Of a DNA stretch of 64,000 bases, positions 24,807 through 63,916 are shown in pieces (position 1 is the stretch's first letter; each line of letters starts with the position of its first letter). Under the pieces are notes generated by a model. That model saw nothing but the letters and a program-made list of their open reading frames with translations, was not told where the DNA came from and made no database searches. The position numbers and the translations under genes are program-made. The stretch covers positions 1 through 64,000 of the forward strand of contig DAHXNF010000030.1 in NCBI GenBank assembly GCA_027366585.1, in the 5' to 3' direction. This DNA comes from Thermoplasmatales archaeon. Its GTDB lineage: Archaea; Thermoplasmatota; Thermoplasmata; Thermoplasmatales; Thermoplasmataceae.

Positions 24807-26228
24807 CTACACCCCGCCTACTAGAGGCAGTATTGAGAAGAACAGTCCAAATATGAAGAAAAGAACAACCACAACAATAGCCGAGAAGTATACCGGAAGC
24901 CTGTTCTGGATTGATAGATCGAATTTATCTTCGCCAGTACCCTGCCTCCAGTACATAAACATCATCACCCGGAAGTAGTAGAATACTGAGATCGCACTGT
25001 TAAGTATTGCTACCACCGCAAGCCACCAGAGACCGCCCTGCACAAGGGACAGGAACAGGAAGAATTTTGCAAGGAAACCGCCTGTGAGAGGAATTCCCGC
25101 AAGCGATAGAAGGATAATGGAGAATGAGAGTGCCACCCCCGGCGACCTTTTAGCAAGACCTGAGATATCATCAACACTGATTCGATCGCTCTTGAAAATG
25201 TTCATCGTGAGGAATGCGCCTCCCTTCATGAATATATACACCAGTGAATAGAGCATTCCTGCGGCGATCGCATACTCAGCTGCCGTCGTTCCCGGAGCAT
25301 AACCCGTTACGGCGAACACAAGTATCAGGTAACCGGCCTGTGCAACGCTTGAATATGCAAGAAGCTTCTTCAGGTTGTTCTGCGAGAGGGCAGCAACATT
25401 CGCGTACGTCATTGTGGCTACTGCAATGATTGCAAAGAATACATAAACGTATGAATCAAGCCCGGAAAAGCCTACCACGAATACCTTGAGCATTATCATG
25501 AAGGCAACCAGCTTGCTTCCAGTTGACAGGAAGCTGGAAACTGAGTTTTCTGTGCCATCGTAGGTATCGATGGCCCACTGATGCATCGGGAATATTGCGA
25601 GCTTGAATCCAAACCCTATTACAAGGAATGCAAGTGCAATCAGCATGTCGGGAGTGGACGATATCTTCAGTGCTCCCGTCAGGCTGAATGTCCCGGTAGA
25701 GAGGTAAAAGTATGAAAGCCCGAATATGATAAAAGCTGTAGCAACCGTTCCTGTGAAGAAATATTTTATAGCTGATTCCAGGGTCTTTTTTGTCTTGTGG
25801 AATCCTGCTATTATGTAAGTCCCGATGCTGACTGCCTCGAAGGCTATGAATAGCGTGATCAGGTTGTAGCTGAACGCAGCCACCAGCATTCCTGTCGTTA
25901 CGAACAGCAGCAGGGCATAGAATATCTCGCTCCTGGCTGCAATGTTCCTTAGCGCCGGATAAGTGATGAACCCTGATGAAACAAGGAAAAGGAGTGCAAA
26001 GTAAAAGCCGAAGCCGTTAAACTGAGTGCCTGCGGATACCGAGAAAGGCAGGATGCCATACCATTCCATTAGTATCAGGAGGAACGAGACAACAAATGCA
26101 CCCATCGCAACGGTGGAATAGATCCTGGACTTAAGCCGGAATATTCCAAGGGCCAGTATCAGGAAACCGGCAGCTCCGAGAACAAGCATGGGGTAGTAGA
26201 ATGCAAGCTGATTGATGTCAAACGTCAT
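24807..26228 (-). CDS. nuoN: NADH dehydrogenase-like complex I subunit N
   Basis: Antiporter-like proton-pumping subunit in the membrane arm. 473 aa, about 14 membrane helices. The conserved glutamate/lysine sites are visible in FIAFEAVSIGTYIIAG and FKLAIFPMHQWAIDTYDG. Overlaps nuoM by 4 nt. Confidence 0.94.
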   Translation of the reverse strand: MTFDINQLAFYYPMLVLGAAGFLILALGIFRLKSRIYSTVAMGAFVVSFLLILMEWYGILPFSVSAGTQFNGFGFYFALLFLVSSGFITYPALRNIAARSEIFYALLLFVTTGMLVAAFSYNLITLFIAFEAVSIGTYIIAGFHKTKKTLESAIKYFFTGTVATAFIIFGLSYFYLSTGTFSLTGALKISSTPDMLIALAFLVIGFGFKLAIFPMHQWAIDTYDGTENSVSSFLSTGSKLVAFMIMLKVFVVGFSGLDSYVYVFFAIIAVATMTYANVAALSQNNLKKLLAYSSVAQAGYLILVFAVTGYAPGTTAAEYAIAAGMLYSLVYIFMKGGAFLTMNIFKSDRISVDDISGLAKRSPGVALSFSIILLSLAGIPLTGGFLAKFFLFLSLVQGGLWWLAVVAILNSAISVFYYFRVMMFMYWRQGTGEDKFDLSIQNRLPVYFSAIVVVVLFFIFGLFFSILPLVGGV

Positions 26229-27733
26229 ATTATGCCTCCAAAGAGAATGCCATGTGCATAGGCCTGTATCGGACCGAAGAAGAGAACAGGAAATATTCCA
26301 AGAACAAGGATCACTGTGAACACTATAATTAACATTGCCAGTGGAGCACCCGTGATGTCAGATATCTTGCCAAGTTTCTCGTTGTATGGCCCATATAGTG
26401 CTTTCTGGGCAGCCCAGATATGGTATGATGCAGTGATAAGCATTCCAAATATCAGCAGGAATATCCAGTAGCCTATGACCTGGTAGGACCCAACAATGAT
26501 GGAGAATTCACCAATGAATCCGGCGAGGCCGGGAAGACCAAGTGACGCCAGAAGACCGCCAAGGAGGATTGTGGATAGGAACGGGGCATCGCGGTATATG
26601 CCCCCAAGCGATGGTATCCTGTCGCTTCCGGTCTTTACAAGAATGTAGTAAATGGAAGCAAACACCAGGAGCATTATTATCCCATGCGTGGCAACCTGGA
26701 ACATGCCTCCTGAAGCGGCAATAAGTGCATTTTCGCTCTTAACCGGATCCAGGAAGGCGGAAGCAAAAGCAAGCGTGACAAAACCCATTGAAGCGGCACT
26801 TGCATATGCCATCATCCTCTTGAGCGACTGCTGGAACATGGCAGTAAGTGCGAAGTAGGATACACTTATCAGGCCAAGCACAACCAGGATGTCAAGACCC
26901 GCTGTGCCGATGAGCCCGCCGAAGGGAAATAATATTCCAAACAACCCATAGCCGCCCATTGCGGACAAGGCACCAGCAAGTATTATGGTTCCCGGGTACG
27001 GAGCCTGCTCATAAGAATCTGCCAGCCAGGCATGCACCGGGAATGATGGAAGCTTTACAAGGAAGGAGAATACAAAGCCGAAAAGGATAAAATCCTTAGC
27101 AATCAACGGAAGTGTTGCCGTGAATGCGGGGTTCTGCATCGCGCTCAATAGAAGATCCATCTGGAATGTCAGCACGCCATATTGCAGGTCATAGTAACTA
27201 TAGAGGGCAAAGATTGAGAGAAGCATGAATATTGATGCAATGTGTGTATATACGAAGAATTTCAGTGAAACCCTGTCCTTTCTGGGTCCACCGAATTTTC
27301 CAAGTATGAAATATACCGGGATGAGCACAAGCTCCCAGAATACGTAAAAGAACAGGAAGTTTCTTGAAATCAGGAGACCTAGCATTCCCGCCTCGGTAAG
27401 TAGAATAAGCAGGAACATTGATGGCGGGTATTGCTTCTTGTCTGTCACGAAGACTGCAGCAGCAAATATTATACCCGTCAATATGAGAAGAGAATCAGCG
27501 AATCCTGAGACGCCGATGGAGAAATATATGCCAAGTGAAGGCGAGAGAGCAATGTTGGACTGGGACAGGAAGCCTCCGGTATAGCCGGATGAAAACCTCA
27601 ATACGCTGTATATCAGGATCGCGGCAAGAGTGATTAGGGTGGAGATTCGGGAAAACGCTGATGATCTGTTTTTCGCAAGGAACGCAATAAAAGCCGAAAT
27701 CAGGACCCAGATGAATATACCAAGAATGATCAT
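26225..27733 (-). CDS. nuoM: Complex I subunit M
   Basis: Antiporter-like membrane subunit. 502 aa, about 14 helices. FFYVFWELVLIPVYFILG holds the conserved helix-5 glutamate, and VKLPSFPVHAWLADSYEQAP the lysine-helix region. Overlaps nuoL and nuoN by 4 nt. Confidence 0.95.
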   Translation of the reverse strand: MIILGIFIWVLISAFIAFLAKNRSSAFSRISTLITLAAILIYSVLRFSSGYTGGFLSQSNIALSPSLGIYFSIGVSGFADSLLILTGIIFAAAVFVTDKKQYPPSMFLLILLTEAGMLGLLISRNFLFFYVFWELVLIPVYFILGKFGGPRKDRVSLKFFVYTHIASIFMLLSIFALYSYYDLQYGVLTFQMDLLLSAMQNPAFTATLPLIAKDFILFGFVFSFLVKLPSFPVHAWLADSYEQAPYPGTIILAGALSAMGGYGLFGILFPFGGLIGTAGLDILVVLGLISVSYFALTAMFQQSLKRMMAYASAASMGFVTLAFASAFLDPVKSENALIAASGGMFQVATHGIIMLLVFASIYYILVKTGSDRIPSLGGIYRDAPFLSTILLGGLLASLGLPGLAGFIGEFSIIVGSYQVIGYWIFLLIFGMLITASYHIWAAQKALYGPYNEKLGKISDITGAPLAMLIIVFTVILVLGIFPVLFFGPIQAYAHGILFGGII

Positions 27734-29637
27734 ATGGCGCCTCCTATTATCTCAACAACCAGGAATACGAGTGCCGCGACGAGAACGATTACAATGAAGT
27801 AATTTTCAATAATACCTGTCTGTAATTTCCTGAGGGCGGACCCCATCCTTGTAACATCCTGTCCAAAGGTCTCATTTGCTGAATTATATCTGTCCTCGAA
27901 GCCGGAAAATGCCGAGGATAGGGGCAGGATTCCCCTGACTGCTATTATGTTAGTAAAGAGTTTATCAAGGTAGTACTTCTTCTTCAGCACCCTGTAAGCC
28001 CTGTTGCTCGTGGAATCCAGTTTCTTCCACCTGTTTGCTGTTCCAACGAAAAGGCCAAGGAGAACACCAACAGCAATGAGCCCATACACGAGGATTTCTT
28101 CCATAAGCGGTTCTGTGAATGCAGCATACGATGCATCAAGATAACGATAGAAGCTTGTCTGGAAGAGGCCGAATGAAAGAGCGAGGACTGCAAGTGCCAT
28201 GAGCGGTATCAGTACGTATTTTGGTGGATCACGTGAATGCTCTGCCAGGTATGATCTTGGTTTACCCAGGGCAACCATTGAGAACATACGGAATGTATAG
28301 AACGCAGTAAAGAATTCACCAAAAGTAAGAAAGACCCATGGGAGTGCATTCGCCAGATTATAACCGGACGAGACATAGTATGCCCATGAGGCGTCAACTA
28401 TTGCTCCCTTCGAGAAGAATCCTGCAGCCGGAGGTATTCCGGATAGCGTTATGGCTCCGATAAACAACAGCGTTACTGTCCATGGCATCCTGCGCCATAA
28501 GCCTCCCATTTCCCTCAGATCCCGGAGATCCATAAGAGCAATTAGTATAGCGCCTGCGGAAAGGAAGAGGAGTGCCTTGAAGAAAGCATGCACAACCAGC
28601 TGGTAAATGGCGAGCGATACGCCTGCCGGTCCAATTCCGGCTGAACCAACAATTCCTATGATTCCCAGCGCTGCCATCATATAACCGATCTGGCTTATAG
28701 TTGAATAAGCGAGCACCCTCTTGATATCATTCATCACCCAGGCCAGGGTGCCTGCGTAGATTGCGGTGAACGCGCCAACGAAAGCAACGGCATAAAGTGA
28801 GTAATAAGCGGATGCGGTAAACAGGGGATAGATTCTTGCAATAAGATATACTCCGGCTGTTACCATGGTGGCAGCATGTATCAACGCTGACACTGTCGTC
28901 GGGCCTTCCATGGCATCTGGTATCCATACGTGCAACGGGAACTGTGCAGACTTCCCGACAGCACCGCCAAGTATCAGGATGGTGGCTAATGCGAGCTTGC
29001 CCGATCCCATGATAGCAGCAACTTGTGGTGCATTCTGTATGAGGTAGGGAATGCTCAGCGGATCTGAGGCTGTTGCCGACAGTGAGGCGTAGATAATGGC
29101 AAGGCCGATAATCAAAGACATGTCTCCCACCCTGGTGACAATGAATGCCTTCTTCGCCGCAGAAGCCGCATTGGGCTTGAAGTACCAGAAGCCGATGAGC
29201 AGGTAGGAGCAGAGACCGACTATTTCCCAGAAGAGGAAAAATATAACAAGATTGGATGATAGTACGACGCCCAGCATTGCGGATGTGAAAAGAGCAGTTT
29301 CCGCAAAATAGACATGTTTCTTTGGATCCTCTTTCATGTAATATGTAGCAAAAAGATGTATCATCAGGGATACGAATGATACCATCAGCACCATGACGAG
29401 TGCAAGATGATCCACGTAAACGCCGTAGCTCAGGTTCGCAAACCATGAATAAGATTGATTGATGGTAGTTGATCCAATAGTAAGAAAAACGTAACCGGAA
29501 AGGATGAATGATATCGCAATGGATGCGGTGCTGATGATCCCGGCAAGCCTGATCTTCTTCATCCCAGCTACTAATGCGATAGGTGAAGCCAGAAGCGGCG
29601 ACAGGAAGATAAACCAAACTGCAAAATCCATATTCAT
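27730..29637 (-). CDS. nuoL: Complex I subunit L
   Basis: Distal antiporter-like subunit. 635 aa: the 14-helix core with FFLFWEIVGLCSYLLIGFW and GKSAQFPLHVWIPDAMEGPT, then a C-terminal part with a lateral-helix-like amphipathic stretch and a last membrane helix. Overlaps nuoK by 4 nt. A 296-aa frame in the other phase at 28727-29617 is a shadow. Confidence 0.96.
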   Translation of the reverse strand: MNMDFAVWFIFLSPLLASPIALVAGMKKIRLAGIISTASIAISFILSGYVFLTIGSTTINQSYSWFANLSYGVYVDHLALVMVLMVSFVSLMIHLFATYYMKEDPKKHVYFAETALFTSAMLGVVLSSNLVIFFLFWEIVGLCSYLLIGFWYFKPNAASAAKKAFIVTRVGDMSLIIGLAIIYASLSATASDPLSIPYLIQNAPQVAAIMGSGKLALATILILGGAVGKSAQFPLHVWIPDAMEGPTTVSALIHAATMVTAGVYLIARIYPLFTASAYYSLYAVAFVGAFTAIYAGTLAWVMNDIKRVLAYSTISQIGYMMAALGIIGIVGSAGIGPAGVSLAIYQLVVHAFFKALLFLSAGAILIALMDLRDLREMGGLWRRMPWTVTLLFIGAITLSGIPPAAGFFSKGAIVDASWAYYVSSGYNLANALPWVFLTFGEFFTAFYTFRMFSMVALGKPRSYLAEHSRDPPKYVLIPLMALAVLALSFGLFQTSFYRYLDASYAAFTEPLMEEILVYGLIAVGVLLGLFVGTANRWKKLDSTSNRAYRVLKKKYYLDKLFTNIIAVRGILPLSSAFSGFEDRYNSANETFGQDVTRMGSALRKLQTGIIENYFIVIVLVAALVFLVVEIIGGAI

Positions 29638-29933
29638 CCCTTTATCTCACTGAGCAATGGAATGTCGACCTTACCGAAACGCCGGTAAACGGCAACCAGG
29701 AGGCTGAATCCGACAACCGACTCGACGGCGGCGATAGCTATCACAAAAAGGGCAAGAACTATCGGGTCCGGGAGCGATCCTGCCACAGATATCAGGTTCA
29801 GGACAGCAGAGTTTATCATGATCTCAAGAGAAATCAGCATCTTGATTCCAACCTTTGAGCTCATGACACCATAAAGGCCGATACAGAAGAGGAGGAGCGA
29901 AACGGTTTGGGGCAGGATCAGCGGCATTGACAT
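29634..29933 (-). CDS. nuoK: Complex I subunit K
   Basis: 99 aa, three membrane helices, with the buried glutamate in LISLEIMINSAVLN and a second in AIAAVESVVGFSLL, both needed for proton transfer in the E-channel. Directly follows nuoJ2. Confidence 0.94.
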   Translation of the reverse strand: MSMPLILPQTVSLLLFCIGLYGVMSSKVGIKMLISLEIMINSAVLNLISVAGSLPDPIVLALFVIAIAAVESVVGFSLLVAVYRRFGKVDIPLLSEIKG

Positions 29934-30149
29934 TTAATCTTCCCTCCCTGTTATGTACAGCATTCCGATTATTCCGCCGACAAGAATGAGCGATAGGAGC
30001 TCAAAAGCAGCAATATATGTAGAGAAAAGAGATGTTGCAACCGATCCTATATCCTGTACTACAGGTTGGAAGCTCGTTATGCTCCTGAGCATTGTAGCAA
30101 AGAAAACTATGAAAAATACTGTAACTGCGGCGAATGCCTTCTTATTCAA
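29934..30149 (-). CDS. nuoJ2: Complex I subunit J, C-terminal piece
   Basis: 71 aa with two membrane helices, the second (FELLSLILVGGIIGMLYITGRE) matching the C-terminal end of NuoJ. With the preceding 87-aa gene it makes up one NuoJ. The start overlaps nuoJ1 by 8 nt. Halobacterial nuo operons are also split here. Confidence 0.85.
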   Translation of the reverse strand: MNKKAFAAVTVFFIVFFATMLRSITSFQPVVQDIGSVATSLFSTYIAAFELLSLILVGGIIGMLYITGRED

Positions 30150-30405
30150 ATTCCTTACCTCCGGTGAGCATCAGTGTAAATACAAGAAGCGTTACTATCG
30201 CACCAACGTATACGAGAAGTTCGATACTTGCCACAAGTGACGAACCAAGCAACAGGAAAACACCGGCCATGCTGAATAGGAAGAACATGAGCCATGTTGC
30301 GGAATGGACTATATTCTTGTCCTGTATTGCCTTGATTGCCGTTACTATGAGCAGTATGGCGAATATGAGGAAAAGTATCGTAAAAATTATGGTTGAATCA
30401 CTCAT
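30142..30405 (-). CDS. nuoJ1: Complex I subunit J, N-terminal piece
   Basis: 87 aa with three membrane helices. LLVYVGAIVTLLVFTLML is the conserved helix-3 pi-bulge region of NuoJ. Ends with a short charged tail (TGGKEFE), after which nuoJ2 begins in another frame. Both pieces look intact, so it is a stable split rather than decay. Confidence 0.88.
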   Translation of the reverse strand: MSDSTIIFTILFLIFAILLIVTAIKAIQDKNIVHSATWLMFFLFSMAGVFLLLGSSLVASIELLVYVGAIVTLLVFTLMLTGGKEFE

Positions 30406-30833
30406 TTCTTGACCTCCTTCTCATCCATCGTTAGCTCAACGGGAGAATACAGGAAGCTATTCCTTGTCCTGGAGGTTTCGAATTCATGGGTTAGATATAT
30501 TGCCGTTGTCGGGCAGATTTCCTCGCAGTTCCTGCAGACAGTGCATGTGCCGAAGTTCACGTCAGGATAAAGCATTCTTTTGTTCCTTGGATTTTCCCTC
30601 TCCAGCTTTTCCATCTTTATGCTGCCGTTCGGGCAAACCTGCTCGCACAGGGTGCATCCAACGCAGTCGTCGAGCTTCAGCGATATGCGGAACCTGAATC
30701 TTTCAGGCTCGTATGGCTTCTGTTCCGGGTACTGTACTGTAAGCGGCTTCTTGAACAGGTGCGAGGCTACGCTGATCATCCCGGCTATTATGCCGACCAG
30801 TGGAATTCCTTTCTTTGGTTCCTTGACTTCCAT
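30402..30833 (-). CDS. nuoI: Complex I subunit I (two [4Fe-4S] clusters)
   Basis: Electron-transfer subunit bridging to NuoB. 143 aa. Both ferredoxin motifs are complete: CVGCTLCEQVCP and CTVCRNCEEICP. An N-terminal hydrophobic or amphipathic stretch (IPLVGIIAGMISVASHLF) docks it to the membrane arm. Overlaps nuoJ1 by 4 nt. Confidence 0.95.
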   Translation of the reverse strand: MEVKEPKKGIPLVGIIAGMISVASHLFKKPLTVQYPEQKPYEPERFRFRISLKLDDCVGCTLCEQVCPNGSIKMEKLERENPRNKRMLYPDVNFGTCTVCRNCEEICPTTAIYLTHEFETSRTRNSFLYSPVELTMDEKEVKK

Positions 30834-30834
30834 T

Positions 30835-31875
30835 TTACCATCCCAGTCCGAGTGTTAGGACACCAGCCAATACTAGGTTTATGAAGGATATCGGTAGAAG
30901 ATATTTCCACCCGACGTTTACAAGCTTATCAATCCTGATCCTTGGCATTGACAGCCAGACTGTGAAAGAGATAAGGACCAGGACGATTCCCTTTACCAGG
31001 AGCCATATGAACCCAACCTGAGATGAAATCGGTCCGTTGAACCCACCAAGATATAGCAGGGAAACCAGCAAAGATCCCAGGAAGATTGTACCAAACAGCC
31101 CCATGTAAAAGAGACCAAATCTCAGTCCGGTGTACTCAGTTGAGTAACCGGAAACAAGCTCGCTGTCGCTCTCCCCCATGTCGAATGGTGCATAAGAAGC
31201 GCGGGCAATCATTGCAATGAAGAAAACAAAGAGCCCGATTGGCTCTAATATACCATAAGGAAGGATCTCTGTCGTGACTATAGATTCAAGGTTCAGCGAT
31301 GTTGCTGTCCTGGCGGATGCCATCATGACTATCGCAAGAACCGAGATCATCATTGGTACCTCGAAGGAAACGTCCTTCGCTACCGATCTCAGGGCTCCCA
31401 TGAGTGCATACTTGTTGTGCGAACCGATTCCCGCAAGCACCTCTCCGATTGGCATTATGGATAGGATTGCAAAAATGAAGATTATGCTAACATCTGAATA
31501 AGTGATTGTGAGGTCTCCAAATATAGATAGATTACCATATGGCAGGAATGCGAACGCGAGTACAAGACCGAAAAAGACTACAAAAGGTGCGACCTTGTAT
31601 GGCAGGTCATCCCTCTCCTTTGGAAATATAACTTCCTTCCCGGCCAACTTTAGCGCATCCGCAATGAGCTGAAGGAGGCCGAATTTTCCGACCCTGTTTG
31701 GTCCTATCCGCTGCTGCACCCTGGCCATGTATTTCCTGAACAGATATACCATAACGATAAGAGAGATGCTTACAAAAATCAGGAGAATTATGCTCTCAAT
31801 AATGTAAGCAAGTGCGTATCCTACATCGTGGCCCAGGAAGCTCAGTACACTGTATATCCACTGCAGAATGCTCAT
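30835..31875 (-). CDS. nuoH: Complex I subunit H
   Basis: Membrane subunit forming the quinone channel. 346 aa, about eight helices. RVQQRIGPNRVGKFGLLQ and the acidic loop FDMGESDSELVSGYSTEYTG are diagnostic. Overlaps nuoD by 4 nt. Confidence 0.95.
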   Translation of the reverse strand: MSILQWIYSVLSFLGHDVGYALAYIIESIILLIFVSISLIVMVYLFRKYMARVQQRIGPNRVGKFGLLQLIADALKLAGKEVIFPKERDDLPYKVAPFVVFFGLVLAFAFLPYGNLSIFGDLTITYSDVSIIFIFAILSIMPIGEVLAGIGSHNKYALMGALRSVAKDVSFEVPMMISVLAIVMMASARTATSLNLESIVTTEILPYGILEPIGLFVFFIAMIARASYAPFDMGESDSELVSGYSTEYTGLRFGLFYMGLFGTIFLGSLLVSLLYLGGFNGPISSQVGFIWLLVKGIVLVLISFTVWLSMPRIRIDKLVNVGWKYLLPISFINLVLAGVLTLGLGW

Positions 31876-32978
31876 CTGTCGATCTCTCCAAACACAAGAT
31901 CAATTGAACCGCTAATCGCAATCATATCTGCAAGCATGACGTCTTTGGAGAGCACCGGAAGTATAGAAAGATTCTTGAATGTCGGGCTTCTAACGCGTAC
32001 CCGATAAGGCTTTACGCCGCCATCACCAACGATGTAAACGCCAAATTCACCCTTGGACGATTCCGTCCTGGCATAGTACTCCCCGTCACCGCGCATCCTT
32101 ATCATCATGGATTTCTTCGCCTTCGGGTTGAAGTATGGCCCTTCGGGGAGCTTGTCAAGAGCCTGCTTAATGATCTTTAGGGACTGCCTCATCTCCTCGA
32201 ATCGGACGAGGAATCTTGCAAGATTATCTCCCTTGTGGGATATCGGGATATCAAAGTTGACTTTGTCGTATACCAGGTACGGTTCAGCTTTCCTAACGTC
32301 GTATTCAACACCGGATGCCCTAAGCATTGGCCCTGTTACACCGTATGCGATCGCCAGATCCCTGCTGAGGACACCAATTCCCTTCGTTCTCGAAAGAAAA
32401 ACATCGTTCTTGACATAGATGTTGTATATTATCTCCATCCGCTTTGGGAATGTTTTCAAGAAATCCTTGATCTCCTCTATGATTTTCTCATTGAAGTCCT
32501 GGTATACGCCTCCGATGCTCATGTAGTTTGTTTCCTGTCTTGATCCGCAGGCCTCGGTGAAGATTGTGAGTATCTTTTCCCTCTCGCCGAAGCAGTAGAA
32601 GAATGGAGTAAGCATGCCAAGGTCAAGGCCGTATGCCCCGGCCCAAACGAGATGGGCTGCCAGTCTGCTCAGCTCTGCCATTATGACCCTGATCCACTTG
32701 GCCCTCTCTGGAGGCGGTACGCCAAGAATCTTCTCGGCTGCCTCCAGGTAGCCGACCTCCATGTTCATTGCGCCAACATAGTCCATGCGGTCAAAATAGA
32801 TCAGGTTGTCACAGTAGAAGCCCATTTCACAGAGTTTTTCAGCATTCCTGTGAAGGTAACCAATAACTGGCTCAAGCTCTTTGATCACCTCGCCATCAAG
32901 CTTTGCTTTCAGCCTCAGTACGCCGTGCATCGAAGGATGCTGGGGCCCGATGTTCAGTTCCACCCATTGATCGCTCAC
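31872..32978 (-). CDS. nuoD: Complex I subunit D
   Basis: 49-kDa-type, hydrogenase-derived subunit lining the quinone site. 368 aa. NIGPQHPSMHGVLR at the start (quinone-site histidine) and the C-terminal SIDLVFGEIDR are conserved. Nickel ligands of hydrogenases are absent, as expected. Overlaps nuoC by 4 nt. Confidence 0.96.
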   Translation of the reverse strand: MSDQWVELNIGPQHPSMHGVLRLKAKLDGEVIKELEPVIGYLHRNAEKLCEMGFYCDNLIYFDRMDYVGAMNMEVGYLEAAEKILGVPPPERAKWIRVIMAELSRLAAHLVWAGAYGLDLGMLTPFFYCFGEREKILTIFTEACGSRQETNYMSIGGVYQDFNEKIIEEIKDFLKTFPKRMEIIYNIYVKNDVFLSRTKGIGVLSRDLAIAYGVTGPMLRASGVEYDVRKAEPYLVYDKVNFDIPISHKGDNLARFLVRFEEMRQSLKIIKQALDKLPEGPYFNPKAKKSMMIRMRGDGEYYARTESSKGEFGVYIVGDGGVKPYRVRVRSPTFKNLSILPVLSKDVMLADMIAISGSIDLVFGEIDR

Positions 32979-33433
32979 CAGCCATCACCAGCGTCAAAAG
33001 TCGCATAATCTTCACCGTCTTCATCCATGTTGACGTACTGGACCTTGCTCAGATCGTAATCCTTCCTGAGCGGATGCCCTATCCAGCCTTCGGGAAGGAA
33101 AAGCCTCTTGAGGTTCGGATGTCCCTCGAACTTGACCCCAACCAGATCATATTGCTCCCGCTCGTCCCAGTTTGCACTTGGCCATATTCCAGTCACGCTG
33201 GGTACAACGTAGTTCTTTGTATTCACCTTGACAACAACATATTCGTTGCGATCCATAGAATGAAGGTGGTAAACCACGTCGATGGAATCTTTCCTGTCGA
33301 TAGCTGTGACAAGAGATAGGTGATCAAATCCGTTGCTCCTCATCTCATTCATGAGAGGGATGAGGTTTTCAACTGAAACCTGTATTATTTTACGACCATC
33401 CTTGCCCATGCTCTCCTGTATGATGTCGACCAC
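32975..33433 (-). CDS. nuoC: Complex I subunit C
   Basis: 30-kDa-type peripheral subunit. 152 aa, separate from nuoD. The signature WDEREQYDLVGVKFEGHPNL and the C-terminal GHPLRKDYDL are present. Overlaps the start of nuoD; 4 nt after nuoB. Confidence 0.93.
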   Translation of the reverse strand: MVDIIQESMGKDGRKIIQVSVENLIPLMNEMRSNGFDHLSLVTAIDRKDSIDVVYHLHSMDRNEYVVVKVNTKNYVVPSVTGIWPSANWDEREQYDLVGVKFEGHPNLKRLFLPEGWIGHPLRKDYDLSKVQYVNMDEDGEDYATFDAGDGW

Positions 33434-33437
33434 ATGA

Positions 33438-33902
33438 TCACCTGTCCGTTTCCCCTCGGATCTTCTTCTGCAGAGTTATGATCCCATATGTAAGGGCCTC
33501 CGGGGTCGGCGGACATCCTGGTACGTAAACGTCAACTGGAACAACTCGATCCACTCCCAGCACGACAGAATAACCTCTTGCGTAGGGTCCACCCTGTATC
33601 ACACAAACGCCCATGGCGATCACGTACTTTGGATAGGGCATCTCATCGTATACCCTTCTTATCCTCGGAGCCATTTTCTTCGTTACTGTGCCAGAGACTA
33701 TCATCAGATCGGATTGTCTCGGTGAATTTCGGAATATCTCGCTTCCGAATCTTGATATATCCAATGTAGAAGCTTGAATTGCCATCATCTCGATCGCACA
33801 GCATGCCAATCCCAATGTTAGCGGCCAGAGCGAATTGCTCCTTCCCCAGGTAAGCGCATTCTCAAGCGTTGTAGTGAGAACTCCGGTTTCACCAGTCTTC
33901 AT
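33438..33902 (-). CDS. nuoB: Complex I subunit B (cluster N2)
   Basis: Holds the terminal [4Fe-4S] cluster. 154 aa. The ligands are visible: the tandem cysteines in LACCAIEMM, the Cys in MGVCVIQGG, and that in [11 protein letters not shown]. Overlaps nuoA by 4 nt. Confidence 0.96.
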
Positions 33903-34333
33903 TTAATCCACCTCATGTAGCCCTCCTTGAAGGCATAATATACGGCGAAGAGTGGCATCAGGAGAAATATTATGGTTTCAATAAATGCGTACACTTTGAG
34001 TTGATAAAAATTGAAAGCCCATGGAAACAGTAGAACCATGTCAACATCGAACAGTACAAAAAGCAGCACCACAACATAATATTGGATATTTACGAATTTA
34101 CCAAAATCTCCTCTGGATACCTCACCTGTCTCATAAGGTTCCATGTAGGTCGAGTCTTCTACCTTCGGCGACATTGAATTACCAAGATTTTTCAATATGT
34201 CAGATGGTTTCAGGCTTATACCAGGTTTTTTGTATCTGCCCTCGCTCAAGCTTGGAAGCACAGCGAAAGCCATAGTCATAGCCAGTATGAGGAGAATCAG
34301 TATTATGGCTATGGGCAGGTATCCCTCAAGCAT
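33899..34333 (-). CDS. nuoA: Complex I subunit A
   Basis: Membrane subunit with three helices. 144 aa. [20 protein letters not shown] resembles the conserved YECG...QRFSVRFY loop (here Thr replaces the loop cysteine). [12 protein letters not shown] is highly conserved. First gene of the operon. CTTAAATAC about 24 nt before the ATG is a plausible TATA box. Confidence 0.93.
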
Positions 34334-44045: not shown

Positions 44046-47000
44046 GTGAATAAACTTATACCCGCCCTGATCTTGGTTGCATTAGTCGCACCTGGACTTG
44101 CTTTCATGACTCATTCAGGCACTTCCTCAATTCATTCAAACGAATTGCGGGTTTACACCCCACAGGAAGTGAATTCGAATTTTACGACCCTCCAGTTGTT
44201 CTCCTCCAATCCTGACGTAACATTTCCACTCCTTTCAAAGATTTCCAGTGGTTCATTCACCAAGGTAGTGTCATATGGCTTCGTTGAGAAGTTGACTTTT
44301 CCCTCATCGAGAGCGACAGACATTGCCAGCGAGATATCACTTGCTTCGAAAATGGGGGGTTCTCTGTCATATTTGAACACCACAACTCCCTTCATTCCAT
44401 ATGTTTCTTATTTTCCATCCCAAAGTTCATCAGGTTATTATACCCCTCAGAATATCTACCAGGCATACTCATTCAATTCTTCCAACGCAGAGGGGATAAC
44501 GGGCAACGGTACCAGCATCGCCATTGTGGATGCTTACGGTGACCCTCTGCTTCAATACGATATCTCTGCCTTTGATAACTTAACTGGCCTCCCGCCAGTT
44601 CAGCTTCAAACAATCTACATGAATAATACACCCAATGCCTATAACCAGAGTTGGGCAGTAGAGACGGCACTGGATGTTGAATGGGCTCATGCTTCTGCTC
44701 CGGGAGCCAAGATAATTCTCGTAATCACTCAGGATGCACAGGCATCACTTACGGATGCTCTCAGTTATGTGATATCCAGGCATGTTTCCAGCATAATATC
44801 CCTTAGCTGGGGTCAAGCGGAAGCAAGCGTTGGCTCAAGTTCGCTTAATTCCGAGAATTCAATGTTCAGGCTGGCAGCCCAGGATGGGATAACCGTTCTT
44901 GCTGCCAGCGGCGATCTTGGGGCTTATGATGGCACCAAATCACTGAACGTGAACTTTCCTGCAAGCGATCCCTACGTACTCGGAGTTGGAGGAACATCGC
45001 TTGACTACAATAACGGGAAATATGTGGAGACTGCATGGGGCGGCAACCAGAGTGGCTCTTCCTATGGCAGTGGAGGCGGTGTCAGTAAATTTTTCGATAG
45101 CCCTTACTGGCAAATTTCTTCCAACATCAATATGACTGCAAGAGGCGTTCCAGACGTTTCGGCAGTTGCTGACAAAAATACCGGTGTTCTGCTCATTGCA
45201 GGTGGAAAGACTTATGTTGCCGGCGGAACAAGTCTTGCCACCCCAATATGGGCTGGTATAGTCAGCAGGATGGAACAGCATCTTGGCTACCCGATTGGTT
45301 ACCTCAACCCGGTTCTTTACCAGATTTACAGATCTCCGCTCTATAAGACAGCGTTCGACGAAGTAACTAGCGGTGGCAACGGGTATTATACCGCTGGCCC
45401 TGGCTGGAACCCGGTAACAGGACTTGGCTCACCCATCGTGAGCGGATTGATTTCAGCAGTTGCAGAGATAAAGTCAGACTATGGCTCGATGGTGAAATTC
45501 GACAGCGGATATGCATTTTCTTCCTTAAACGGGACGCTTTCAATCCCGGATGTTGCGCAGAGCAACTTATCATTGAATGGTACCGTGTTCTACTACCTTT
45601 CCATGTACTATTCCAGCACCTCGTACCTGAGATTTGGCATAGCATTGAATTCGTCCGGCGTGTATGACAGGTTCTCAGAAGTTGATGGGTCTGTCGCTTA
45701 CAGTGATACCAAGTACCTGGGCTCACTTAAGAGCAATATAAGTTTAAGTTACAAGCTAGAACTGGACTACAATGGAAGCTATGCGACAACAGGACTTAAT
45801 GGCGCTCTCACCGGAACTTATCCGATCATGCAGGCTTATTCCGGCAGTTCTGCCCCTGCACTGGGAGTTGAGATAATTAATCCAGTTGATAATCTCACAG
45901 TTATTCCTGATGCCAATTTTTCGTCTGTTGCTTTGCTGAACTCATCCGGGATATCATTACCGCTTAAGGCGTATCAGATGCACTATTCAGGAATTGCTGG
46001 TGATTCCAGATATTCAACGATAAACATTGCTCAGAACGGCACTGATTTTTTCTTAAGTTCCGGGAACAATACTGCGGACTCATTTCTCGATGGGGCCACA
46101 TCTGCTGGCCCGTGCATAATTTATTCCACGGTATACTCGAGCCATCCGACCCTTACCTTCAACCTTTCCACCCCCGAGACAGTACTTTATTGGAAAGTCA
46201 ATGGATCAGATGCAACATCAAATGTTATTCAGTTCACCAACCCGGGGATTTATAACGTGACCGCTGACTTCGAAGGAGGGAATGTTTCAAGAGAGGTGGT
46301 GGTTCCGCGCATACTAAAATCAGATCTGAGGGTGTATAACCATTACCCATTCTATATCCCACAAGTATCGTACGTTGTGGATCATTCCCTAAATGGAAAT
46401 GGCCTGATAGGATCCAACCTCTCCATTTACGGATTCAGTGGTATTAACACGTTATCCGTGAACGCCTCGGGATATTATCAGTCTAATATTTCATTTGCGG
46501 GTGGATCAAAGTTGGATGTCAATTTGACACCTGCTAATGCAAGCATCAGTATCTTCGTTTTTGCTGGTAATTCGTCGGTTAATCTGAATGGTAGCATATT
46601 GATAGGAAGATCAGGTTTTTATCATGATTCTGTTATGCCGGGCACATACTTCGTCAATGTATCTGCGCCAGGGTTCTATAGCAGGAATAGCACTTATGAG
46701 CTGTCTCCTGGACATAATTACAGCTTCCAGTATATCCTGATACCTACGGAACAGGTTTATTCGCTTCAGGGAATCATAACAGATGCTGTACATAAGTTCC
46801 CAATCCAGGGAGTCGAGGTGAGTTCCGGCGGTAAGATATATGGGTATAGTAATGACACAGGGTTTTACGAGATCTTCGCTCCACCCGGATCTTATAATTT
46901 CACTTTCTCCAAAGACTACTATAACTCCACGATAATTAATGAGCACCTGACAAGCAACCTCACAGAGAATGTAGGCTTGTTTCCGACCTCGGTAAACGTT

Positions 47001-47393
47001 TCTGAGGTGTATCTCGCGGGTGTGAGTTTCTTCTTCCCAATAGGGTATCTCTCTCTTTACGTATCATGGACGCTTCCGAGCCAGCCCGGAGTCAGTGAAT
47101 TCAGGATAGATTATTCAACGAATGCAAATATGTCCGGATTCAGCTATGTAGTAGTCCCTGCAACTTCAAGCTACACAATCCTGTTTCCGGTTACACCTGC
47201 TGCAACCTATTACGTACAGGTACTATCTATTCTTGCATCAAACCAGATAGTCGCAAGCAAGATATTCACATTGAATGCTGTATCACTTCCGGACGTTCTT
47301 ATAAACATCGCCATGTACGTTGCAATAATAACCTATCTTGTAGTGGCGGTACGGATATTGCGAAGGGCATTCAAGAAAAAGAAGATTGTCTAG
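44046..47393 (+). CDS. Sedolisin-family (S53) surface protease with C-terminal membrane anchor
   Basis: Serine-carboxyl protease active at acid pH. 1115 aa. A signal sequence (residues 3-20) is followed by a partial pro-region and the S53 domain with Glu206 and Asp210 (AVETALDVEW), oxyanion Asp290 (AASGD) and Ser396 (GGTSLATP). The Ca-site region is near GWNPVTGLGSP. After about residue 475 comes a long beta-rich, N-glycosylation-prone stalk, a carboxypeptidase-regulatory-like repeat near 915-960 (IQGVEVSSGGKIYGYSNDTG), a fibronectin-like unit (ISWTLP-type, about 1015-1080), and a final membrane helix with a basic tail (RRAFKKKKIV). GTG start placed by the promoter. Probably a cell-surface peptidase for nutrition. 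Confidence 0.92.
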   Translation: MNKLIPALILVALVAPGLAFMTHSGTSSIHSNELRVYTPQEVNSNFTTLQLFSSNPDVTFPLLSKISSGSFTKVVSYGFVEKLTFPSSRATDIASEISLASKMGGSLSYLNTTTPFIPYVSYFPSQSSSGYYTPQNIYQAYSFNSSNAEGITGNGTSIAIVDAYGDPLLQYDISAFDNLTGLPPVQLQTIYMNNTPNAYNQSWAVETALDVEWAHASAPGAKIILVITQDAQASLTDALSYVISRHVSSIISLSWGQAEASVGSSSLNSENSMFRLAAQDGITVLAASGDLGAYDGTKSLNVNFPASDPYVLGVGGTSLDYNNGKYVETAWGGNQSGSSYGSGGGVSKFFDSPYWQISSNINMTARGVPDVSAVADKNTGVLLIAGGKTYVAGGTSLATPIWAGIVSRMEQHLGYPIGYLNPVLYQIYRSPLYKTAFDEVTSGGNGYYTAGPGWNPVTGLGSPIVSGLISAVAEIKSDYGSMVKFDSGYAFSSLNGTLSIPDVAQSNLSLNGTVFYYLSMYYSSTSYLRFGIALNSSGVYDRFSEVDGSVAYSDTKYLGSLKSNISLSYKLELDYNGSYATTGLNGALTGTYPIMQAYSGSSAPALGVEIINPVDNLTVIPDANFSSVALLNSSGISLPLKAYQMHYSGIAGDSRYSTINIAQNGTDFFLSSGNNTADSFLDGATSAGPCIIYSTVYSSHPTLTFNLSTPETVLYWKVNGSDATSNVIQFTNPGIYNVTADFEGGNVSREVVVPRILKSDLRVYNHYPFYIPQVSYVVDHSLNGNGLIGSNLSIYGFSGINTLSVNASGYYQSNISFAGGSKLDVNLTPANASISIFVFAGNSSVNLNGSILIGRSGFYHDSVMPGTYFVNVSAPGFYSRNSTYELSPGHNYSFQYILIPTEQVYSLQGIITDAVHKFPIQGVEVSSGGKIYGYSNDTGFYEIFAPPGSYNFTFSKDYYNSTIINEHLTSNLTENVGLFPTSVNVSEVYLAGVSFFFPIGYLSLYVSWTLPSQPGVSEFRIDYSTNANMSGFSYVVVPATSSYTILFPVTPAATYYVQVLSILASNQIVASKIFTLNAVSLPDVLINIAMYVAIITYLVVAVRILRRAFKKKKIV

Positions 47394-61061: not shown

Positions 61062-63044
61062 TTGCTTCATTTCGTTTATGTGATTCTTCTGCTGCTGATG
61101 CTTGCAATGGGAGGGGCAATGTCCTTTCTTATCCTCTACGCACGCAAAGCCACGAACGTCTTGCAGCGCCTGTTCACTTATCTTATAGCTTCAATGATGA
61201 CCGGCATGCTCGTTGGCCCAATGATCTATCTGGTTATTCCCGGCAGCTTAAGTGTTGCAGGGGCGGTAGAGGTCTCTCTATTCGCCATGACACTGCTTGT
61301 TATACCAGCACTTGTAGTTTTCATTGATGATTTAATTGAAAGGAGAGATGAGAGATCGAGGTCCTTCATTCTATTAGTAACCGCAATCACCGTGATTGCG
61401 GATGAGGTGATGATGAGCATTGTATTCAACCTCATCATGGATCAGGAGGGATATCTTGCAATGCTGCATTCCAACCCGCTTGGTTTTATCTGGAGCGCCA
61501 TCTCAAGTTACTGGTTTGTCTTTCCCATGGCCCTCGAAATGCTTGTCACCATAATATTCATGTGGAAAGAACTGAAAGCAAATGTCAGGGTTGTCCTGAT
61601 TGTCCAAGCTGCGCTGATGTTCCTCGAACCTACAGCACTGTCTTCGCAGATATGGTCGCTGTCAACCATATATATATCCGGCGCCCTGATGACTGCATTT
61701 TTCGTCTACTTGTTTGAATATCTTTACAGGAAGCAGTCATTGAAGATGAGCCTCAGCAACTACCTCCTTCTCCTTCTTTTTGTGTATGGCATTATGATGG
61801 CCGGAATCTTTGCATGGATTTCTCTTCGCAGTTATGCCTTGATTGCAATCGCCATGGTCAGTGACATGATAGTTTATCTGTCTGCTTCCCTCAGTCTGAA
61901 CCGATTGTCTTCAGGCAAAAGCCTTTATTGGATCGCCAGCAGGTCGTGGTCATTCCTTTTCCTCCTGCTGGTTTTTGCAGCAGAATTCTTCATGGGCGCA
62001 GTATTTGATCTCTCTTACTACGGATCAACAGCATTCATCCAGTCGACCGGCATTGTGGATTTCTCGGGTCCCATTCCGATGTACCCGGGGATCGCCTTTT
62101 ATGATTTCTTCACCTTTTTTGCTCATGTTTCACTCTCCTCGTGGTTCCTTGTTATGATGGGCATTGAGATGGGATCACTTGTTGTATTCAAGATTCGCAC
62201 AACCAGGGAACTGGAAACGAGGATCCGGCTTGGCCTGATGCTTGCTGCATATGCAGTCTATTCGATCTACCTGCCGTCTTTCCTGCTGTCGAGTCCATCA
62301 AGCATGCCATTCATTGGATGGACGATGGGCATTGGATCCGGAGGAGCATTTTCCCTTGTCTTTTTGATCCCGATACTTCTAACTTACCTGATAAGCGGCG
62401 TTCTCTCCCTGCTTTTCGGGTCCAGGCAGTTATGCTCAACCTTCTGCACTGCCCCGGTCATGTACCAGGGCACTTTCTATGACTCAATGAAGAAATTCAA
62501 TGGTTCATCCTCAACAGCAACCCTGCTGACGAGACAGTCAAGGGTCGGCGGAACTGTATACAGGGTGGTTTCCCTTAGCGTATATACAGCCCTGATACTT
62601 TCTGCTGCTGCATCCCTGCTTGATTCCATGGGATACCTGCATTTCTACTTTTACGGGTCAGATCCTTCATACATGGTTTACCTGTTCCTCTTCGGCTTTC
62701 TCTGGTATGCTGTCTTCATCTCGATGCCTTTCCTTGGGTCGTATGGATGCATCAATACCGGTTACTGTCACTGGGGAAACTTCAACAGGTTTCTTTCAAG
62801 ATTTGGCTTCTTCAGGCTCAAGGTCCGGGACACAAATCAGTGCGTAACATGCGAAACAAAGGACTGCGCCTCTGCCTGCCCAATAGGTAACTACGGACAG
62901 CCTGGAAAGTTCATTCAGTCAGGAGAGTATAAGGAATCCAGGTGCGTGGGTATTGGAGACTGCGTTGATGCGTGCCCGTACGAAAACATATTCTATTATG
63001 ATGTCAGGCATTGGCTAAGGGAGAAGCTTTCAAAGAAGGACTAG
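61062..63044 (+). CDS. Polytopic membrane protein with C-terminal iron-sulfur domain
   Basis: 660 aa. About 14 membrane helices in two blocks (1-230 and 235-570), then a cytosolic ferredoxin-like tail. The first block resembles the 291-aa protein encoded convergently downstream. Cysteines RQLCSTFC and YGCINTGYC lie at the ends of loops in the second block. The tail has Cys594, Cys597, Cys602 and Cys606 (CVTCETKDCASACP) and Cys628, Cys634 and Cys638 (CVGIGDCVDACP), with Ile631 where the second ligand of a [4Fe-4S] motif is expected. NapH/CcoG-type membrane ferredoxins are the closest general picture, but not a match. Likely moves electrons between a cytosolic donor and the membrane. Start is a TTG at 61062, with GAGGG upstream. 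Confidence 0.75.
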   Translation: MLHFVYVILLLLMLAMGGAMSFLILYARKATNVLQRLFTYLIASMMTGMLVGPMIYLVIPGSLSVAGAVEVSLFAMTLLVIPALVVFIDDLIERRDERSRSFILLVTAITVIADEVMMSIVFNLIMDQEGYLAMLHSNPLGFIWSAISSYWFVFPMALEMLVTIIFMWKELKANVRVVLIVQAALMFLEPTALSSQIWSLSTIYISGALMTAFFVYLFEYLYRKQSLKMSLSNYLLLLLFVYGIMMAGIFAWISLRSYALIAIAMVSDMIVYLSASLSLNRLSSGKSLYWIASRSWSFLFLLLVFAAEFFMGAVFDLSYYGSTAFIQSTGIVDFSGPIPMYPGIAFYDFFTFFAHVSLSSWFLVMMGIEMGSLVVFKIRTTRELETRIRLGLMLAAYAVYSIYLPSFLLSSPSSMPFIGWTMGIGSGGAFSLVFLIPILLTYLISGVLSLLFGSRQLCSTFCTAPVMYQGTFYDSMKKFNGSSSTATLLTRQSRVGGTVYRVVSLSVYTALILSAAASLLDSMGYLHFYFYGSDPSYMVYLFLFGFLWYAVFISMPFLGSYGCINTGYCHWGNFNRFLSRFGFFRLKVRDTNQCVTCETKDCASACPIGNYGQPGKFIQSGEYKESRCVGIGDCVDACPYENIFYYDVRHWLREKLSKKD

Positions 63045-63916
63045 ACATCGGGTACCGCAATCTTCTCATCCTGAAACATTCCAAGTATAATCGTGAAATA
63101 TAGCGTCATTGCCACCATCATGGAAACTGCGAATATTAACCAGGACAGTCCGAACGGATGTGTATACAGGACCGGTTCGAGCAAGCCTGCTGCAGAAATA
63201 ACGATTAAAACTATGATCCACCGCAAAATCTTTCGACTGCTCAACGTGATTTCATCACGATGCGCATAGACATAGCTGAAAAGATAATAGATTGCCGCAA
63301 TCATGAGGAGCGAATATGCAGCGAGGAGAGGTACGACGAGAGATGATTTACCGAGCATTGCCGGATCTGCAAGCTGCATTATTAGTATTGTAATCACCGA
63401 TCTCTTTTCAAAACCGGGGCTCATCCTGAAGAAGATGAAGTAAACCATCTCGGCCAGCATTGGTGCAAGGAAAAGGATGCTAGTTATTGATAGCGAGAAA
63501 TAAGAGATATAGGAACCGAGCGATGATACTCCGTCAAATCCGAAGCCGATTACTCTCAGGAACAGCGCCATAGAAATCTCGTTCCACGAAAGCAGCAATG
63601 CGAATACAAAAACTTCAAGTCCCGCGAATCTAGAATATGTTTCAGTGGTCGCAGCAATCAGTATGTAGACTACGGCAATTGTCATTATTATCATTGAAAT
63701 ATTGACGGCAAGTATCGAGTTCAGGAATGATGGAGGGGCAACGATATAATACAGGAGAGCATCCAGCATGCTTCCCATCATTGTAATGAGGAAGAGACCA
63801 AGTGCAAAACCCTTAAGAGTGATTTTATGCCTGAACAATCTGAGATAATTTATTACCCAGATAATGAAGGCGGTCATGACCACTTCAGTGAAAATCACCC
63901 AGAATAAATTCTGCAC
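63041..63916 (-). CDS. Polytopic membrane protein related to the block 1 of the preceding gene
   Basis: 291 aa, about eight membrane helices, no cysteine cluster. Its middle (WNEISMALFLRVI ... AEMVYFIFF ... QLADPAML) lines up by eye with ADEVMMSIVFNLI ... LEMLVTIIFMW ... MFLEPTAL of the 660-aa protein, including the acidic residues. Convergent with it, overlapping by 4 bp. No family recognised. Confidence 0.7.
   Translation of the reverse strand: MQNLFWVIFTEVVMTAFIIWVINYLRLFRHKITLKGFALGLFLITMMGSMLDALLYYIVAPPSFLNSILAVNISMIIMTIAVVYILIAATTETYSRFAGLEVFVFALLLSWNEISMALFLRVIGFGFDGVSSLGSYISYFSLSITSILFLAPMLAEMVYFIFFRMSPGFEKRSVITILIMQLADPAMLGKSSLVVPLLAAYSLLMIAAIYYLFSYVYAHRDEITLSSRKILRWIIVLIVISAAGLLEPVLYTHPFGLSWLIFAVSMMVAMTLYFTIILGMFQDEKIAVPDV

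Follow-up and report, generated by a model that had tools for sequence, protein, structure and literature searches.

A convergent pair of methionine-rich membrane proteins, one with a NapH/CcoG-like iron-sulfur half: a possible copper reductase and Cu(I) relay of Thermoplasmata

Copper loading of archaeal respiratory oxidases is poorly known, and we know of no archaeal membrane protein that reduces copper and hands it over to respiratory enzymes. CcoG, a cupric reductase for oxidase assembly, carries two tetranuclear clusters and two copper sites; its homologue YccM lacks the Ig-like domain of CcoG, and the sole archaeal cupric reductase named in a 2020 review is CopZ, a cytosolic chaperone (PMC7558416). 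In the NapH/NosR/CcoG-YccM proteins (COG0348, Fer4_5), membrane helices, a CX3C(P) motif, a second cysteine motif and two ferredoxin motifs follow one another in an order that recurs in the larger of the two archaeal proteins described here. This large protein differs from them in an added N-terminal block of two methionine/glutamate (Met/Glu) units, in a second motif that reads C-x5-C and not CX3CP, in a two-residue insertion in ferredoxin motif I and a motif II of three cysteines, and in being archaeal and accompanied by a small partner protein. To our knowledge, CcoG has no Met-rich repeats. As with CcoG, an iron-sulfur membrane protein of the same superfamily stands beside an oxidase gene cluster (PMC7558416), but the oxidases linked to our family in relatives are other haem-copper oxidases rather than cbb3, and the pair studied here is unlinked; the C-terminal Ig-like domain is also absent, the large protein ending just after its ferredoxin domain.

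Methionine motifs in membrane helices are likewise found in the CcoA/CalT importers, with M-x3-M in CcoA (PMC7558416), and in Ctr-type transporters, and the large protein has M156-x3-M160 and M366-x3-M370; CcoA, however, is an MFS protein, whereas models of our two proteins have no significant match in the PDB. Sco, Cox11/CtaG and caa3-CtaG resemble the pair only in the copper-delivery role proposed below and are unrelated to it in sequence, and the haem-ligand histidines of haem A synthase (CtaA/COX15) are not conserved in the membrane units. Two published proteins probably correspond, by gene context, to an oxidase-linked paralogue of the large protein: the 'Fd, ferredoxin' of the sulfocyanin cluster in Acidiplasma, Ferroplasma and Picrophilus (PMC12524180), and the COG0348 member FAD_0146 of F. 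acidiphilum (PMC5473848). Both were published only as ferredoxins, without membrane repeats or a copper role, and our literature search found no paper on either aspect of the large protein.

Membrane units and their methionine/glutamate signature

The window, the whole stretch of 64,000 nucleotides that was analysed, is part of contig C61 (71,938 bp) in a 1.7-Mb Thermoplasmata genome. Two of its genes converge and overlap by four bases, a CTAG palindrome common to both (63041..63044) that supplies both TAG stops. The large protein (61062..63044, plus strand; 660 aa, TTG start), described from its open reading frame, family alignments and an AlphaFold2 model, consists of two Met/Glu membrane units, a NapH/CcoG-like membrane part and a dicluster ferredoxin tail. 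The small protein (63041..63916, minus strand; 291 aa) comprises one full Met/Glu unit and the first three helices of a second.

Aligned directly by BLASTP, the two proteins are no more than 26% identical (E = 0.002). Single-gene relatives of the large protein nevertheless match residues 1-288 of the small one with up to 33% identity (E = 3e-49), and profile-profile alignment (hhalign, 99.7%, E = 3.9e-26, 268 columns) joins residues 1-279 of the small protein to residues 3-278 of the large one, so that homology is beyond doubt despite the weak BLASTP result. The original prediction of a homologous pair was therefore right, but the region that it proposed, residues 1-230 of the large protein, was too short. 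The acidic-helix motifs that it singled out are indeed the conserved ones: E115 and M118 of the large protein pair with E113 and M116 of the small one, M156-E159-M160 with M153-E156-M157, and P190 with P185, the prolines of the motifs read as LEP and ADP.

A second membrane block had also been noticed in the large protein, and it proves to be a second copy of the same unit. Residues 1-194 (61062..61643, plus strand), delimited by conserved columns and homologous to the small protein, align with residues 195-412 (61644..62297, plus strand) as tandem copies (hhalign 95%, P = 2.6e-8). ADEVMMS pairs with AAEFFMG, which sets E115-M118 against E308-M311, and SxWFxxxMxxEM is present in both units, as M156-E159-M160 and M366-E369-M370. 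Conserved residues are M16, M45, M46, M49, M76, E115, M118, M156, E159, M160 and P190 in unit 1, and M210, M245, M269, E308, M311, M365, M366, E369, M370 and P405 in unit 2. This internal duplication, with the methionine signature and the oxidase linkage described below, is absent from the original prediction.

AlphaFold2 models of the large protein (pLDDT 82, pTM 0.86) and the small protein (pLDDT 88, pTM 0.86) have predicted helices in the same order and with the same spacing, those of the small protein spanning residues 4-27, 34-59, 64-91, 99-125, 133-163, 169-182, 194-218, 225-250 and 260-277. The small protein had no match among Pfam, NCBIfam or PDB sequences, the membrane block of the large one had none in Pfam, NCBIfam or the PDB, and Foldseek searches of the PDB with both models returned no match with E <= 0.001. 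The best match of the small model, itself non-significant, was haem A synthase 8aw5 (E = 0.15, TM 0.30, rmsd 11 Å).

Methionine dominates the conserved residues of these units. The membrane block of the large protein has 39 columns conserved at 95% (59 sequences), of which 17 are Met, five are Glu and none is His; the Met background of the block is 6% (enrichment P = 2.5e-11). Within the small family, where identity falls to 16%, Met accounts for five of the nine columns conserved at 95%, and the seven invariant columns are five Met, E113 and P185. This bias is missing from other proteins encoded at these loci, Met making up 1 of 66 conserved columns in COX1, 2 of 64 in UbiA and 2 of 145 in cytochrome b. 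By our reading of the models, most of the conserved Met and Glu lie near mid-helix. The pattern suggests soft-metal sites, most naturally for Cu(I); conserved membrane methionine is by itself no proof of copper. The haem-binding unit envisaged in the original prediction is rejected, since the membrane units conserve Met and Glu and not a single His.

The C-terminal half and its ferredoxin tail

No known oxidoreductase had been recognised in this layout. That still holds for the membrane block, which remains unmatched, but the C-terminal half aligns end to end with NapH, NosR and YccM (CcoG), so the layout is not wholly unrecognisable. A NapH-family profile, built from NapH and YccM of E. coli together with 13 relatives encoded on plasmids, several of them annotated NapH or NosR, matches this half at E = 3e-15 across 184 columns; when the ferredoxins are excluded, the membrane part gives P = 6e-8 with the first CX3C(P) aligned. 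A tblastn search of 72,556 plasmids with one relative gave eight matches, yccM and napH among them, each insignificant alone. Pfam Fer4_5 has no match in the window protein and matches 20 of 36 members weakly, on the CX3CP, below the cut-off in all those inspected. Judged by these profile alignments, the C-terminal half is related to, but has diverged from, the membrane ferredoxins NapH, NosR and CcoG (COG0348).

The NapH/NosR/CcoG-like membrane part (residues 425-586; 62334..62819, plus strand) was placed by the profile alignment without ferredoxins and by Fer4_5 on the CX3C of relatives. Its cysteines, like both ferredoxin motifs, are invariant in the family. The CX3C motif CSTFC (residues 458-462; 62433..62447, plus strand) aligns with the CX3CP of NapH, the proline being present in the oxidase-linked clade and missing in the window protein, and in place of the second CX3CP of NapH, NosR and CcoG all members have C563-x5-C569 (62748..62768, plus strand). 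In three genomes, G011 (L060), G058 (L059) and G120 (G120:C1:1298670-1300579), two adjacent genes together encode the large protein, and the break lies close to where the membrane repeats give way to the NapH-like half, which supports this module border.

The tail (residues 587-650; 62820..63011, plus strand) is a dicluster ferredoxin domain by alignment and by Pfam (Fer4_10, E = 1e-5), and the proposal of a membrane redox protein with an iron-sulfur tail is supported. Motif I, aligned at 62841-62879 (plus strand), reads C594-x2-C597-x4-C602-x3-C606; it has the two-residue insertion seen earlier, and its spacing is that of the ethylbenzene dehydrogenase beta subunit. Motif II (62943-62975, plus strand) reads C628-x5-C634-x3-C638, with Ile631 where a cysteine is expected. 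The family lacks the two full four-cysteine motifs of NapH, NosR and CcoG: motif II has three cysteines in 36 of 36 aligned relatives, and the position of Ile631 is never Cys. The missing ligand is a family trait, in support of the [3Fe-4S] or three-cysteine cluster suggested at the outset. A three-cysteine motif II is compatible with the seven-iron, [3Fe-4S]/[4Fe-4S] type of ferredoxin, its spacing is also found in seven-iron archaeal ferredoxins, and a [3Fe-4S] cluster in the tail is plausible.

Gene neighbourhoods, co-occurrence and origin of the pair

The large protein had a match in 46 of 61 sampled genomes, the two or three weakest being ferredoxins or fragments, and relatives are encoded in 152 stretches of the genome collection, Nitrososphaerales included. 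Many single-copy relatives have the gene within or next to a cluster that encodes COX1, COX2, a cupredoxin, haem O synthase and a membrane protein with a CQC motif; some of these oxidase clusters also hold Rieske and cytochrome b genes, and other relatives have sulfocyanin in the cluster. Its companions in Nitrososphaerales are a CuA-like C-x3-C-x3-H protein and a CC-motif membrane protein. We compared 92 distinct loci. At 33 of them, similarity to reference clusters revealed a gene for an oxidase, a cupredoxin, Rieske, cytochrome b or haem O synthase no further than 9 kb away; at 40 there is a small homologue close by, a few of which may be truncated large ORFs.

The CuA-like neighbour of Nitrososphaerales, a 150-aa protein with C-x3-C-x3-H-x2-M (L090:5059-5517 and relatives), has no confident Pfam match. 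Three families of multi-helix membrane proteins adjoin the large gene in different lineages, C1 (L042:3114-4580), c6 (L090:4183-5046) and c8 (L114:8574-9947), with the invariant vicinal cysteine motifs CQCE, ACC and GACCST, respectively. None of the three matched Pfam, and profile comparison gave no significant match that would speak for common ancestry; these CQC/CC proteins are possibly copper-chaperone partners. At L081, L084, L088 and L089, all in one subclade of the paired loci, we read an ArsB-like transporter gene and an arsenate-reductase-like gene directly upstream of the large gene.

Across Thermoplasmata, a comparison already suggested in the original prediction, the large protein tracks COX1. 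Among 151 genomes of the class, 54 have both, 82 have neither and 15 are discordant (6 + 9), giving Fisher P = 2e-24 with genomes counted as independent and kinship uncorrected. A Thermoplasma-like genus has the large protein without COX1, with Rieske, cytochrome b and a cupredoxin-like gene close to it. The reverse is seen in a close genome, G035, and in two families of the class sample (f22 and f25), which have COX1 without the large protein; the two families should therefore use another route of copper delivery. A SCO1/SenC chaperone was considered as an alternative route: SCO1 hits were weak, the two best, which were the ones inspected, are peroxiredoxins, and we found no convincing Sco in the relatives. 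Caa3_CtaG had no match among 25 small-protein relatives. CtaA had none over the cut-off in 41 relatives, haem O synthase being in the cluster.

The window's genome, together with G015 and G016, has a syntenic oxidase cluster without the large gene, and its large/small pair lies elsewhere, away from copper genes. In a tree of N-terminal domains, the small proteins of the window's clade nest, with support 99/98, among large proteins linked to oxidases; the paired large protein belongs to a different clade, together with Nitrososphaerales. The subtrees of the paired large and paired small proteins largely mirror each other; more distant small proteins (L115-L137) lie outside, on long branches. 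From this nesting, the window's small protein looks like the retained N-terminal domain of a lost oxidase-linked paralogue, one that now seems to work with the other paralogue, the paired large protein. The pair takes the place of the large gene that the oxidase cluster lacks.

A candidate copper reductase and the alternatives

We propose that the pair forms a membrane complex that reduces copper and relays Cu(I) to haem-copper oxidases and cupredoxins during their maturation, a reading that we regard as evenly balanced between right and wrong. A cytosolic donor would feed electrons into the ferredoxin tail, from which they would reach the cysteine motifs of the NapH/CcoG-like membrane part and there reduce Cu(II) to Cu(I). 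Met/Glu clusters in mid-membrane, one per unit, with two in the large protein and a third in the small one, would then bind Cu(I) for delivery to COX1, COX2 or a cupredoxin. Presumably the small protein associates with the large one. That the metal is copper, that electrons flow in this direction, that Cu(I) is handed over and that the two proteins physically associate are points that we infer. We count in favour the Met/Glu signature, the relation to NapH, NosR and CcoG, the gene linkage, the co-occurrence with COX1, the lack of a convincing Sco, the replacement of an oxidase-cluster gene by the pair and the nesting of the small protein. Against it we count the second CX3CP and the one ferredoxin cysteine altered with respect to CcoG and NapH, the Thermoplasma-like genus without COX1, the presence of COX1 alone in G035 and two families, and the distance of the window's pair from copper genes.

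A broader version, which we hold tentatively and would sooner doubt than assert, is that a new membrane fold, made of a duplicated Met/Glu helix unit and joined to a NapH/CcoG-like reductase, is the main machine for copper insertion into haem-copper oxidases in Sco-less acidophilic archaea. A single chain would then both reduce copper and relay Cu(I) within the membrane, and the split-off domain would be a third relay unit. If the copper reading is true, what the literature on iron-oxidising archaea calls simply a 'ferredoxin' serves in copper maturation and has a membrane domain of an unfamiliar kind, and cultured Ferroplasma, Acidiplasma, Picrophilus or Thermoplasma would allow a test.

The main rival is respiratory electron transfer, in which quinol or ferredoxin would supply electrons to sulfocyanin, a CuA protein or the oxidase and the membrane units would bind quinone. 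This is unlikely but deserves weight: it fits the kinship of the C-terminal half with NapH and NosR and the neighbouring genes for Rieske, cytochrome b, sulfocyanin and CuA-like proteins, and it accounts for the Thermoplasma-like genus. However, the membrane units are dominated by Met and conserve no His, an unusual makeup for quinone sites; neither an FMN domain nor a redox domain on the extracytoplasmic side turned up, and in several genomes Rieske and cytochrome b already fill the step.

Clearly less probable is a role in the transport of, or resistance to, copper or some other soft metal (Ag, Hg), not specific to oxidases, in which the reductase would keep the metal in the transported state. 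The Met/Glu membrane sites, the acid mine and hot-spring habitats of many relatives and the ArsB/arsenate-reductase-like genes that we read beside a few paired loci are what such a role might lead one to expect, but the linkage to and co-occurrence with COX1, and the missing large protein in relatives without an oxidase, are not.

We give little credence to a haem-modifying enzyme that replaces CtaA and draws electrons from the ferredoxin tail. The missing CtaA beside a clustered haem O synthase and the Foldseek match to haem A synthase point that way, yet that match superposes poorly, the units have no conserved His, the Thermoplasma-like genus keeps the large protein without COX1, and in the sulfocyanin clusters (cluster 17) the large gene stands beside a gene published as COX15 (PMC12524180). 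Equally improbable is a thiol-reducing conduit, DsbD-like in effect, that with the CQC/CC neighbours would keep outside cysteines of CuA proteins or cupredoxins reduced: the vicinal cysteines of the neighbours and the two invariant cysteine pairs in the membrane region of the large protein suit it, but it leaves the methionines unexplained, and neither protein has a thioredoxin-like domain.

Three further observations concern the surroundings of the pair. Just past the window's end, the small gene is followed by one for a 195-aa protein (L031:5997-6584) that reads like a ribbon-helix-helix regulator and has a homologue near a distant pair in L051 (14949-15527). By ORF reading, the minus strand at 24807-34333 carries a complex I-like cluster in which NuoEFG-type NADH-input subunits were not seen, and the plus strand at 44046-47393 encodes an exported protein of 1115 aa whose sequence suggests a sedolisin-type acid protease.
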